Part shown: positions 19,775-25,540 of the stretch, one piece after another | Numbering within the stretch: the first letter of the stretch is position 1 | How the letters are laid out: every line of letters starts with the position of its first letter | Assembly (NCBI GenBank): GCA_028874195.1 | Contig: JAPPLM010000064.1 | Coordinates: forward strand, 1 to 39,468 | Reading direction: 5' to 3' | Length of the DNA stretch: 39,468 nt | Origin: Chloroflexota bacterium | Lineage (GTDB): Bacteria > Chloroflexota > UBA11872 > VXOZ01 | Notes under the pieces: generated by a model | The model's database searches: none | Told to the model about the DNA's origin: nothing | Seen by the model: only the letters and a program-made list of their open reading frames with translations | Program-made: the position numbers and the translations under genes

Positions 19775-20296
19775 ATGCTATCGGAACAGATGGAGGCGGC
19801 ATTTAACGAACAGATCACGGCCGAGCTCTATGCATCGAATTTGTATCTCGCGATGGGAGCCTACTTCGATGCGCAGGCCTATCGCGGTTTCGGTCATTGG
19901 TTGCGTATGCAAAGTGAGGAAGAGCGCCAGCATGCGCTGCGTATCGTCGACATCGTGGTTGACCGCGGCGGCACGGTTGACATCCAGGCCATTGAGGCGT
20001 GCGGCTCATTCGAGTCCCCACTGGCGATATTTGAACAGGTAGTGGCACAAGAACAGAGAGTTACGCAGACCTTCCATGTCCTTTCCGAACTGGCCGAACA
20101 AGAGCGCGACCATACAACGCTCGTGGAACTCGAGTGGTTTCTCCTCGAGCAAGTGGAAGAGGAGCGGGTCTCTCGCGACATTCTGAAGAAAGTAGAGCGC
20201 CTGCAAGATTCGGCGAGCGGCATGCTAGAACTCGACCGCGAACTTGGGGGGCGAATGGTGGCAGAGGAACAAGAGGAAGCGGAGCCGCAGCAGTAA
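19775..20296 (+). CDS. ftnA: Bacterial non-haem ferritin
   Basis: This 173-aa iron-storage protein forms a four-helix bundle that assembles into a 24-mer shell. Ferroxidase ligands align in number with E. coli FtnA: Glu17, Glu49/Glu50 and His53 (E-E-E-R-Q-H), Glu94 region (V-A-Q-E-Q-R) and the late Glu cluster (E-Q-V-E-E-E near 128-133). The C-terminus ends in an acidic, Gln-rich tail. The ATG at 19775 has GAAAG/GGGAAAG-type RBS sequence upstream. No Fur-type operator was recognised before it. It stands alone between hflKC and tRNA-Gly. Confidence 0.93.
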   Translation: MLSEQMEAAFNEQITAELYASNLYLAMGAYFDAQAYRGFGHWLRMQSEEERQHALRIVDIVVDRGGTVDIQAIEACGSFESPLAIFEQVVAQEQRVTQTFHVLSELAEQERDHTTLVELEWFLLEQVEEERVSRDILKKVERLQDSASGMLELDRELGGRMVAEEQEEAEPQQ

Positions 20297-21693: not shown

Positions 21694-22512
21694 TCAGGCG
21701 AGGGCTCTGCGCCTGAACGAGGCTACCAGTGCGAAAATCCCGCTTGCTACCAGGGTCATGGCAGGAGCCGCAGGCACGTTGAAGTGGTAGGAGATGTAGA
21801 GGCCCGTCACGGCGGATGCGGTCCCTAGCGCCGCGGCCAGCAACATCATGGAGACAAAACGCCTGGCCAATAGATACGCCGCGGCAGCAGGTGTTACCAG
21901 CATTGCCATGACGAGAACGATACCCGCCGCCTGAATGCCTATTACGATAACGAGGGCAAGCATGACCAGAAACATGTAGTCGACCAAGTTGGTACGCGAA
22001 CCGACAACCTGCGATCCCACGGGATCAAAGCTTGCAAACATCAGCCAGTGGTGAAGAGTGAATAGCCCCAGGATGACAATCAAGGTTATCCCAAGGGACA
22101 CATAGATGTCGGTTGGAGATATGGCCAATACCTTTCCCAGGAGCAAATCTTCCATATTGACTCTGATGTGCGACGCACTTGCCAGCATCACAAGTCCCAG
22201 GGCAAACATGGCTGCAAAGAGAATGCCTATGGAAGTATCCGTGCTAAGGCCCGCGCGTCGGCTCACCGTTCTGACCAGTAAGGCAATGGAGACCCCTGTT
22301 GGGATGGCGGCTATGGCCGGGTTGATGCCGACTATGAAGCCAAGCACCATGCCCGGCAGCACAGCGTGAGCGAGTGCGTCCCCAATGAAGGCGAGATTCC
22401 TGGTGACGACGTACGCGCCAACCAGCGGACACATCACGCCCACCAGAATCGAGCCGATCAGGGCTCTCACCATGAAGCCGTACTCAAGCGGGGCGATAAG
22501 AAAATCGATCAC
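21694..22512 (-). CDS. Metal ABC transporter permease (ZnuB/AztB/MntB family)
   Basis: This 272-aa ABC-3 family permease has about eight hydrophobic helices. The family motif R-N-L-A-F-I-G-D-A-L-A-H-A-V-L-P-G lies near 43-59, and V-L-V-M-A-M-L-V-T-P-A-A-A-A near 197-210. It forms the membrane channel for Zn2+ or Mn2+ uptake with the ATPase and binding lipoprotein encoded just upstream. Its start lies 4 nt after the ATPase stop, so the three genes form one operon transcribed leftwards. The binding protein's ligand set favours zinc. Confidence 0.92.
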   Translation of the reverse strand: MIDFLIAPLEYGFMVRALIGSILVGVMCPLVGAYVVTRNLAFIGDALAHAVLPGMVLGFIVGINPAIAAIPTGVSIALLVRTVSRRAGLSTDTSIGILFAAMFALGLVMLASASHIRVNMEDLLLGKVLAISPTDIYVSLGITLIVILGLFTLHHWLMFASFDPVGSQVVGSRTNLVDYMFLVMLALVIVIGIQAAGIVLVMAMLVTPAAAAYLLARRFVSMMLLAAALGTASAVTGLYISYHFNVPAAPAMTLVASGIFALVASFRRRALA

Positions 22513-22516
22513 GTTT

Positions 22517-23278
22517 TCAATCTACCGCTCCCCCGTCCGTAGCAAGCCGCAGACCGGGGGCGCCATACAGCTTCTCCATTACCTGGGGCGTAAAGACCTG
22601 GTCGGGAGGACCGCAGGCACACACCTGGCAGTTCAGACACAATACCTCGTCGAAGCGGCCCGCCAGGTTGGTCAGGTCGTGGGTCGCCAGCAAGACAATG
22701 CATCCGTCATCCCGTAAGGATCTAAGAACTTCAACGAGGCTTTCTTGGGCGCCGAGATCGACGCCGCTGAACGCCTCATCCAAGAGAATTACACTTGCCT
22801 CTTGGGCCAAAGCCCGGGCGACAAACACCCTTTGCCTCTGTCCGCCCGATAGCTCAGTCATGAGAGCGGAGCGATGGTCCCATAGGCCCACACGACAGAT
22901 GCACTCCTTCACGAGCTCTCGGTCTCTCTTCCCAGGTCGCCGGAACCACTTTAGTCTGCAGCGCCGTCCCATCATGACAACGTCCATGACGGTCACGGGA
23001 AACCGCCAGTTAACGCTCTCTCGCTGAGGCACGTACGCCAGCGCCCCGCCTCCCTGGTCTACACGGTGAAGGGTTACCTTTCCATGGCGGACCGGGAGGA
23101 GCCCGGCAATAGCATTGAAAAGGGTGCTCTTGCCGGCTCCATTCGGTCCTACAACGCCCATAAGTGTACCCGCATCCACGTCGAAGGTGACGTTGCTCAG
23201 GGCCATGTGCCCATCGAGCTCGACGGTCACGTCCTGAAGCGAAACGCTTGCTTGATGCGAGTACTGGGCGGAACTCAC
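22517..23278 (-). CDS. Metal ABC transporter ATP-binding protein (ZnuC/AztA/MntA-like)
   Basis: This 253-aa ATPase energises the adjacent importer. Walker A is G-P-N-G-A-G-K-S-T (about 44-52), the Q-loop V-P-Q-R-E-S (about 83-88), the signature L-S-G-G-Q-R-Q-R near 144-151, Walker B V-I-L-L-D-E-A-F, and the H-loop A-T-H-D-L. N-W-R-F-P-V-T-V-M-D-V-V-M-M-G-R is typical of Mn/Zn/Fe chelate-type ATPases. The GTG start overlaps the binding-protein stop as GTGA, implying coupled translation. Confidence 0.93.
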   Translation of the reverse strand: MSSAQYSHQASVSLQDVTVELDGHMALSNVTFDVDAGTLMGVVGPNGAGKSTLFNAIAGLLPVRHGKVTLHRVDQGGGALAYVPQRESVNWRFPVTVMDVVMMGRRCRLKWFRRPGKRDRELVKECICRVGLWDHRSALMTELSGGQRQRVFVARALAQEASVILLDEAFSGVDLGAQESLVEVLRSLRDDGCIVLLATHDLTNLAGRFDEVLCLNCQVCACGPPDQVFTPQVMEKLYGAPGLRLATDGGAVD

Positions 23279-25491
23279 TTCAGTGCCTCGACAATTCGAG
23301 TCACATTTGCGCGCACCATGCCAAGGTACGTATCAGCGCCGCTGCCCTCCGGTCCAAGCGATCCGGAATAGAGCTGGACCACCTCTGCTCCAGTCTCCCT
23401 AGCTACGGCTTGTGCCAGCCTGTCACTGACAGTCGTCTCGCCAAACAAAGCCGGCACGTTGTGGTCTCGAATGACATCGACCAGTGCCGCAATGTGCTCC
23501 GCAGAGGGCTCCACGTGAGTTGAAAGTGACGGAATGACCAGACCAATCACCTCAAATCCATATGCCTTTGCAAAGTAGGCGAGGCTGTCGTGTGATGTTA
23601 CCAGCAGTCTTTGCTCAGGCGCCAACACGCTGACCTGATCTTGGATCCAGGCGTGCAACTCGTCGAGCTGCTCCTGGTATTCGGCAGCATTCTGGAAGTA
23701 GACGGTCGCGTTGTCCGGGTCTAGAGCCGCAAGCCGGGCGGCGATCTCGTTGACCGCGATCTTCACCCGAATTGGGTCGAACCAAAAGTGTGGGTCGTAA
23801 GTGCCGTGGACGTGTCCCTCATGGCCATGACCGTCACCATGATCGTCATGGTCGTCATGATCATCAGCCTCGCCCACAATTCCTACGAATGCGATCTTGG
23901 TGGGTGCACCCTCTACGTGCCAGTGCCTAACTACCTCCAGATCGTGCTCGTCTAGCTGCAGCACCTCGCCGCCCACTGAGTCAGTGATGAAGATTGCGCC
24001 CGGCGCCACGGCCAGGTGGGGACGCGCCCAGAATCCTGTCTCCACCGGAGTCGCCAGGAAGTCAGTCTTGGACGCCAGCAGATCTCCATCGTGAGAGTCA
24101 TAGACACGCAGTTCACCGTCGCTCATGACTACCAACAGAGTCTCACCACCATGGCCAAGCTGGACCTGGATGGGGCGGAGGTCTTCCGTTGCGGAGAAGA
24201 GCAACTCCATCGTCTCCTCTTCCGGCTCGACGATGTACAGCCCAAACGACGAACCCATGGCAAAGAAGTGATCCAGACCGTGGGCGCCCCAAACGGATGT
24301 GACCTGGAAGTCATCAGCAACCCCGTCCGGCGCTATGAAAACATGGGAGTACTCGCCCGGATGTGCATCCAGAACCAGGACGCCACCGTGGCATCCGAAT
24401 ACGGCCATGTGGCCGTTGCCGGCGCTACCTTGCAGCGAGTCGCAACCCTCAGCACTGTAGAGAACATTGCCATCCAGGTTTCTGATCTCCGCGCCAATGG
24501 GAAGCCGAGCGTCAGGGTTGCCTGGGTAGTCCGGGTGCTTGATGGTAACGGCGAAGAGATCGCCTTCCATCGGTACCACTGCTCCATGCTGAGGACCCAC
24601 GTTCATTCGCAAAGGAACATAACTGTCCCCATGCTCTTCCAGCTCATGTTCGTCGAGAAGCACCACTTCACCGGAGCCCTCGTAGAAAATGGCCGTCCAT
24701 TCATCGCTTACATGCAGGTGCGTGGGACGGTCGCCGCTCAAGTCCAGGGCAAGCTTTCGTGAATCCTCCTCAACCAGGTCGAAGTGGTCATCATGAGCCT
24801 CCAAGAATATCCCGCCATCGAACACATAGGCCATGTTGGCATCTGAGGAGACGGCAACTGCAAAGCGGCCAGTGTGGGAAGTGTAAATCAGGCCGGCCCG
24901 TGAACCCAAGTCAAAGCGGTCCTGGTCCACCGCGCCAGTCTCCAGGTCTATGAGGGAAATCTTCCCTTCCACGCCATCGCCCACGAGCAAGTGGCCCACG
25001 AGCATCTCGTCATGATGTTCGCCTTCATCCTCGTGATCCTCGTGATCGTCATGCATATCGATCTCGGTGAACTCGATCGGATCGACGCTTTCACCGAGCG
25101 CTACAATCTTAGACTCGTCCGCACTGGCGTTATGTAAGAGTTCCTCCAGCCAAGCAGCCTCCAAGTAGAGGCCGACAGACAACACGAGATCCGCATCTGC
25201 CACCCTGGCAATGTCGCGGGGTGTGGGCTGGAAGTGGTGCGGGTCGCCGCCCACTGGCAGCAGGCTGAAGACCTCCACCCTGTTTCCACCAATGATACGA
25301 GTCCAGTCTGCTACAAAGTTGGTGGTTGTTACTACCTGAATCAGCGGCGCGGATGGCTGGGCCGCCTCTTTGGCAGATTCTTGGGGATCTTGGTCAGTTG
25401 CGCAGGCAGAAAGGAAAGCCATCGCGAAGGCGATAAGGCCCACAGCAAACGTCTGCGCAAACCGCCCGTAGCGATTCTTGCGATCAAGCAT
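23275..25491 (-). CDS. Zinc-binding lipoprotein (ZnuA/AztC type) with inserted AztD-like beta-propeller
   Basis: This 738-aa lipoprotein is more than twice the usual ZnuA length. A signal peptide ends in the lipobox L-S-A-C (Cys30). Residues 50-145 are the N-terminal ZnuA lobe with D-P-H-H-F-Q-P-T-P (ligand His85). A His/Asp/Glu-rich strip (147-160) leads into an inserted domain of about 380 residues (163-541). Its repeating beta strands and segments such as L-P-I-G-A-E-I-R, Q-H-G-A-V-V-P-M and F-G-C-H-G-G-V-L resemble the AztD zinc metallochaperone propeller. A second His-rich strip (545-562) precedes the rest of ZnuA: D-P-H-F-W-F-D-P (His568), T-S-H-D-S-L-A-Y-F (His634) and F-G-E-T-T (Glu685). 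Three His ligands favour zinc. ATG 25491 was chosen because GGAG lies 8 nt upstream; ATG 25512 is in frame. Confidence 0.93.
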   Translation of the reverse strand: MLDRKNRYGRFAQTFAVGLIAFAMAFLSACATDQDPQESAKEAAQPSAPLIQVVTTTNFVADWTRIIGGNRVEVFSLLPVGGDPHHFQPTPRDIARVADADLVLSVGLYLEAAWLEELLHNASADESKIVALGESVDPIEFTEIDMHDDHEDHEDEGEHHDEMLVGHLLVGDGVEGKISLIDLETGAVDQDRFDLGSRAGLIYTSHTGRFAVAVSSDANMAYVFDGGIFLEAHDDHFDLVEEDSRKLALDLSGDRPTHLHVSDEWTAIFYEGSGEVVLLDEHELEEHGDSYVPLRMNVGPQHGAVVPMEGDLFAVTIKHPDYPGNPDARLPIGAEIRNLDGNVLYSAEGCDSLQGSAGNGHMAVFGCHGGVLVLDAHPGEYSHVFIAPDGVADDFQVTSVWGAHGLDHFFAMGSSFGLYIVEPEEETMELLFSATEDLRPIQVQLGHGGETLLVVMSDGELRVYDSHDGDLLASKTDFLATPVETGFWARPHLAVAPGAIFITDSVGGEVLQLDEHDLEVVRHWHVEGAPTKIAFVGIVGEADDHDDHDDHGDGHGHEGHVHGTYDPHFWFDPIRVKIAVNEIAARLAALDPDNATVYFQNAAEYQEQLDELHAWIQDQVSVLAPEQRLLVTSHDSLAYFAKAYGFEVIGLVIPSLSTHVEPSAEHIAALVDVIRDHNVPALFGETTVSDRLAQAVARETGAEVVQLYSGSLGPEGSGADTYLGMVRANVTRIVEALK

Positions 25492-25540
25492 TAGTTTCAC
25501 TCCAATTTCCATTTCTTCTCAATTCTAGTTCATTTCGTTG

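Follow-up and report, generated by a model that had tools for sequence, protein, structure and literature searches.

A ZnuA/AztC-type receptor of Chloroflexota with an AztD-type propeller inside its histidine-rich loop

The split receptor gene and its operon

The window, a 39,468-nucleotide stretch of a Chloroflexota genome (contig JAPPLM010000064.1), carries an ABC transporter operon in which the receptor gene is a single intact frame without stops, encoding 745 residues from its first ATG. An alternative ATG at 25491 would give a 738-aa product with residue numbers lower by 7, in which His92 and His575 become His85 and His568. Along the 745-aa chain, the N-lobe of a ZnuA/AztC-type receptor is followed by a His/Asp strip, an eight-bladed propeller, a second His/Asp strip and the receptor C-lobe. 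The operon and the parts of the chain are laid out as follows.

21694-22512, minus strand: ABC-3 permease, AztB-like (PF00950, E 2e-69; AztB model NF040871, E 4e-60, below cut-off)
22517-23278, minus strand: ABC ATPase, AztA/MntA-like (matches the AztA model below its cut-off)
23275-25512, minus strand: split receptor-chaperone lipoprotein gene (stop-free frame; full-length homologue in G003, 81%)
25402-25512, minus strand: signal peptide with lipobox LSAC and Cys37 (read from the sequence)
25060-25368, minus strand: receptor N-lobe, residues 49-151, with ligand His92 (PF01297 model 1-97; His92 in 47/47 fused proteins)
25006-25059, minus strand: left His/Asp/Glu strip, residues 152-169 (predicted disordered; at the same place in other fused proteins)
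23869-25005, minus strand: AztD-type eight-bladed propeller, residues 170-548 (NF038015, E 1.3e-29; PDB 6cmk and 6ck1; model Z 42.4 to 6ck1_B)
23803-23868, minus strand: right His/Asp strip, residues 549-570, with 7 His (from the sequence; predicted disordered)
23278-23802, minus strand: receptor C-lobe, residues 571-745, with ligands His575 and His641 (PF01297 model 85-263; both His in 47/47 fused proteins)

The stop of the receptor frame overlaps the start of the ATPase (23275/23278). An ATPase and a permease stand in the operon as in AztABCD systems, but AztC and AztD, rather than being separate, share one frame. A lipobox-like motif, found by regular expression, is present in 43 of the 47 fused proteins. 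Upstream of the transporter, on the opposite strand, lies a gene that appears ferritin-like by eye (19775-20296). A further ZnuA-type receptor of the same genome (L001:1345-2478, contig C32 of G000) is uninterrupted and has a long His/Asp loop.

Together, the two lobes cover the whole Pfam ZnuA model, which matches in two stretches (284 bits) separated by approximately 380 residues. The three His ligands of receptor cluster A-I, His92, His575 and His641, are present and invariant in the fused set. The preliminary description had placed the first two 483 residues apart in the 738-residue numbering, and this spacing holds; it falls within the range of fused proteins, 470-546 (n = 36 measured), as opposed to 67-209 in plain relatives (n = 12 measured). 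The NCBIfam AztC model scores 252 bits, below its 350-bit cut-off, which leaves the receptor outside the AztC equivalog. At the column of the fourth AztC ligand, Asp279, as read from the alignment of PsaA Asp280, the window's clade has Gly; the plain receptor on C32 keeps Asp at this position. Modelled as one receptor across the insert, the two lobes (aligned over 12-701) reach Z 34 to the loop-deleted AztC structure 5kzj.

The propeller insert and its recurrence

The NCBIfam AztD model NF038015 matches residues 177-543 nearly end to end (model positions 1-354 of 356, E 1.3e-29) with 103 bits, the curated cut-off being 400 bits, and by sequence the insert is a divergent AztD homologue rather than an AztD at the level of that family. 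Its only significant PDB matches are the two solved AztD proteins, 6cmk (E 1e-22) and 6ck1 (E 7e-22). A prediction of the insert alone, made from a 51-sequence alignment, reaches a mean pLDDT of 93.7, and the best nine Foldseek matches of the model are all AztD. VIA-align superposes the model on 6ck1_B with Z 42.4 (rmsd 2.6, 363 aligned), compared with Z 25.3 for the best other propeller, which rules out an unrelated propeller. The AztD-like nature of the insert, suggested earlier from the sequence, is thus borne out by the family model, the solved structures and the predicted fold, and the concern that it might be an unrelated domain falls away. A prediction of the full chain combines an AztD propeller with an AztC-like receptor and leaves both strips disordered; at a pTM of 0.58, its domain orientation is not usable. 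No second AztD match was found in the window's genome.

The flanking strips consist of His, Asp and Glu to 74-91% in the window protein, and the right strip connects the propeller end with the receptor ligand His575. Strips on both sides, as initially described for this one protein, recur in nearly every fused homologue; in a few of these, the left strip is short and carries little charge. Insert-less orthologues with ungapped loops occur in G005 (same genus) and G016 (same class), with lobes 84-90% identical. They start and finish the loop with the same residues as the window protein, which places the insert within the flexible loop and not at an end of the receptor, again as had been proposed. 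The loop of the G004 orthologue contains a stretch of N, and this orthologue was left out as evidence for absence of the insert.

The same split protein is present at full length in G003, of the same genus (81% identical). A contig scan of genomes gave 62 loci, which were pooled with the earlier loci to count architectures; N-lobe, propeller and C-lobe lie together in 47 frames, representing 46 distinct genes, and every named record is labelled Chloroflexota. Among the loci retrieved in a search of the class to which G233 belongs (393 genomes), 27 combine all three parts, some of them being genes already counted, and other members of that class encode stand-alone propeller lipoproteins without receptor lobes. 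In a plasmid collection, the matches listed are only AztD-like proteins, at ≤29% identity. An assembly join or chimera, against which the preliminary description had cautioned, is ruled out by the full-length homologue in the same genus together with dozens of further, independently assembled loci. Two fused genes (L046:4131-7725 and L049:3821-6332) are broken over two frames, through sequencing error or decay.

Evolutionary history of the propeller

The tree of the receptor lobes and the tree of the inserts disagree strongly. Among the inserts, clades A and B both have good support, and the receptor clade of the window protein mixes members with insert A (the window, G003, L045 and L055), members with insert B (L072, L075, L076, L077, L082 and L084) and members with none. 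Constraining the receptors with insert A to one clade was rejected (AU p 1.9e-5, dlnL 186), as was constraining the inserts of the window-type receptors to one clade (p 3e-4, dlnL 590), and a single, vertically inherited fusion as the whole story is ruled out by both tests. These p-values, and that given for L153 below, are indicative, the constrained sets having been chosen after the first trees were seen and the trees being 'quick' ones with long branches.

At L153:3389-5677, a Chloroflexota receptor with short strips carries a Poribacteria-type AztD insert, which groups with AztD of Poribacteria; placing it with the other Chloroflexota inserts was rejected (p 7e-4). This is apparently a second, independent insertion at the same loop. 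Two loci, L076 and L088, each hold a plain and a fused receptor that differ by the propeller between the strips, with lobes identical to 90-91% and 80-82%, respectively, at the DNA level. The free propellers of L147-L151 nest inside insert clade B.

Several propellers occur in other settings. L147:3989-7089 encodes a tandem pair of stand-alone propeller lipoproteins, in which TPQATA repeats follow the lipobox in place of receptor lobes. L050:5236-8028, labelled Candidatus Binatia, encodes a different host protein of 931 aa, itself propeller-like by eye, that encloses a clade A propeller together with His-rich strips, and a Fur-like gene lies nearby. At L094:5836-8196, a Poribacteria AztD extends by approximately 330 C-terminal residues that end, by eye, like a sorting domain, and a plain ZnuA gene lies upstream.

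Given the conflict between the trees, the Poribacteria-type insert of L153 and the tandem plain and fused copies, the propeller behaves as an exchangeable module shared by several deeply different receptors. It has probably moved into, between and out of receptors by recombination in the repeats that encode His and Asp, which would be the simplest cause. We lean slightly towards a wider picture in which the His-rich receptor loop acts as a socket, with at least two AztD lineages inserted independently, exchanged and freed again as lipoproteins, and with the His/Asp codons as the recombination seams.

Zinc sites, proposed delivery and known systems

The solved PdAztD has two zinc sites, site 1 formed by His124, His167 and His218 and site 2 by His99, His102, Asp104 and His408, as well as a disulfide between Cys214 and Cys231 (PMC6689063). 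Aligned to these residues, the insert has the following positions.

24778-24795, minus strand: AztD zinc site 2 (donor site), H240, D242, H243 and D245, aligned to PdAztD His99, Asp101, His102 and Asp104 (PMC6689063)
24718-24720, minus strand: site 1 ligand His265, aligned to PdAztD His124
24586-24588, minus strand: site 1 ligand His309, aligned to PdAztD His167
24430-24432, minus strand: third site 1 position, where Gln361 replaces PdAztD His218 (His in 47/49 fused inserts)

The internal ligands of site 2 (H240, H243 and D245) are kept in the window protein, and this three-residue set is complete in 48 of 49 fused inserts. Site 1 reads His, His, Gln in the window protein and is complete in 47 of 49; among these inserts, only the window protein and its G003 homologue have Gln in place of His218, and G003 is altered further (H102 to D, H124 to N and H167 to Q in PdAztD numbering). 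The disulfide pair, C357 and C374 here, is found in 49/49. The position of PdAztD His408 falls where the insert has no free C-terminus, and the first His of the right strip (552) lies approximately 2 residues beyond its equivalent. Overall, the AztD ligands and the disulfide are near-completely conserved across inserts down to 23% identity. From the family and the ligands, the metal bound by the window protein is presumably zinc, and L055 has a Fur-like regulator and a CobW gene (by reading) as neighbours, a zinc context.

Compared with G003, the insert of the window protein has a dN/dS of 0.26 and the two lobes have 0.18 and 0.12, values indicating that the insert is under purifying selection, somewhat looser than that on the lobes. 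The erosion of site 1 and the somewhat faster evolution of the insert suggest that, in the window's genus, the propeller may be giving up some of its function. The preliminary expectation that the fusion is probably functional is supported, in that the intact operon and the dN/dS of the insert fit it; the erosion of site 1 in this genus, and the sharing of the module among deeply different receptors, had been missed at that stage.

In PdAztD, zinc is transferred from site 2, which is built by the N- and C-terminal strands and a hairpin, and the association of AztC with AztD is rate-limiting (PMC6689063). In AztC, zinc transfer requires the D-loop and every one of its histidines, and in the published model the loop docks in the pore of AztD (PMC7463823). 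As site 2 lies on the extension of the terminal strands and the hairpin, an AztD that is linked to the receptor by both of its termini carries the donor site at the joint. Delivery of zinc in cis seems to be the best reading of the window protein, because the insert occupies the transfer loop, donor site 2 falls at the joint and the His strip leads to His575. The propeller would capture zinc at site 2; zinc would then be passed along the right His strip, from the C-terminal strand of the propeller (the His408 position of PdAztD) to His575, and the receptor would hand it on to the permease. The tether would remove the slow, rate-limiting association step and hold the chaperone at the membrane. 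We assign a probability of about 0.64 to the reading that this is a membrane-anchored zinc receptor of the AztABC/ZnuABC type, with AztD inserted as an exchangeable module in the flexible loop that engages AztD and delivering zinc in cis.

The main competitor, which we consider unlikely but take seriously, is that the propeller works as a zinc store or scavenging antenna, raising the local zinc level and letting the metal dissociate rather than handing it over to the cleft in a directed way. Nearly all relatives have both zinc sites, stand-alone lipoprotein propellers without receptor lobes exist in the same class, and the ZinT domain of AdcA is dispensable for import (PMC7858048). However, the site damaged in the window protein is site 1, which is non-transferring in PdAztD, whereas donor site 2 is kept, and the insertion falls in the very loop required for transfer (PMC7463823).

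It is improbable that the propeller serves mainly to contact the cell surface or a partner protein, with zinc sites that are merely structural. Propellers are common interaction folds, and a zinc-type permease is absent from the flanks of 23 of 47 loci, some flanks ending at contig ends, so that some of these receptors must rely on a transporter whose genes lie outside the locus or have another function; the near-full conservation of the AztD ligands and disulfide in such divergent inserts nevertheless argues against mere contact. Still less probable is a decaying hybrid, in which selection on the insert has relaxed in this genus, leaving it as a remnant, and the plain C32 paralogue does the work: the loss of a site 1 ligand, the dN/dS of 0.26 against 0.12-0.18, the plain receptor in the same genome and the insert-less G005 orthologue would fit, but there is no frameshift or stop, dN/dS is well below 1, and site 2, the disulfide and the fold are all kept.

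As the AztC-AztD complex is transient, direct metal hand-over has been hard to study; a single chain with donor and acceptor tied together at the transfer loop offers a ready system for catching the complex and for measuring the effect of a tether on the rate. The tree conflict and the apparent second insertion also make it possible to test whether domains are inserted preferentially into low-complexity metal-binding loops.

We found no description of the split AztC-AztD architecture in the open-access literature searched, and one may exist elsewhere; the component families are known, and so are receptor-chaperone fusions in other forms. The closest system is AztABCD of Paracoccus denitrificans (PMC6689063, PMC7463823), which shares the two families, the three receptor His, the donor-site ligands, the kind of ABC partners and the place of the loop. 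There, AztC and AztD are two proteins in transient contact, as opposed to the window protein, where AztD sits inside the transfer loop of the receptor. Streptococcal AdcA (PMC7858048) likewise joins a ZnuA-like receptor and an accessory zinc protein, ZinT, on one lipoprotein, but ZinT has an unrelated fold and follows the C-terminus of an unsplit receptor via an 11-aa linker. In actinobacterial receptors of the anchored-repeat type, such as C. diphtheriae ZnuA (PMC12445094; TIGR03772), His63 and His317 are 254 apart and an HxD/HxH zinc motif is present, features from which this receptor probably also has a zinc-motif insert between its lobes; that region is smaller, different and not a propeller, and it is tied to cell-wall proteins sharing the motif. 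The stand-alone AztD-like lipoproteins of Chloroflexota (L140-L151) have a propeller that branches inside or beside the clade of fused inserts, but carry it without receptor lobes.
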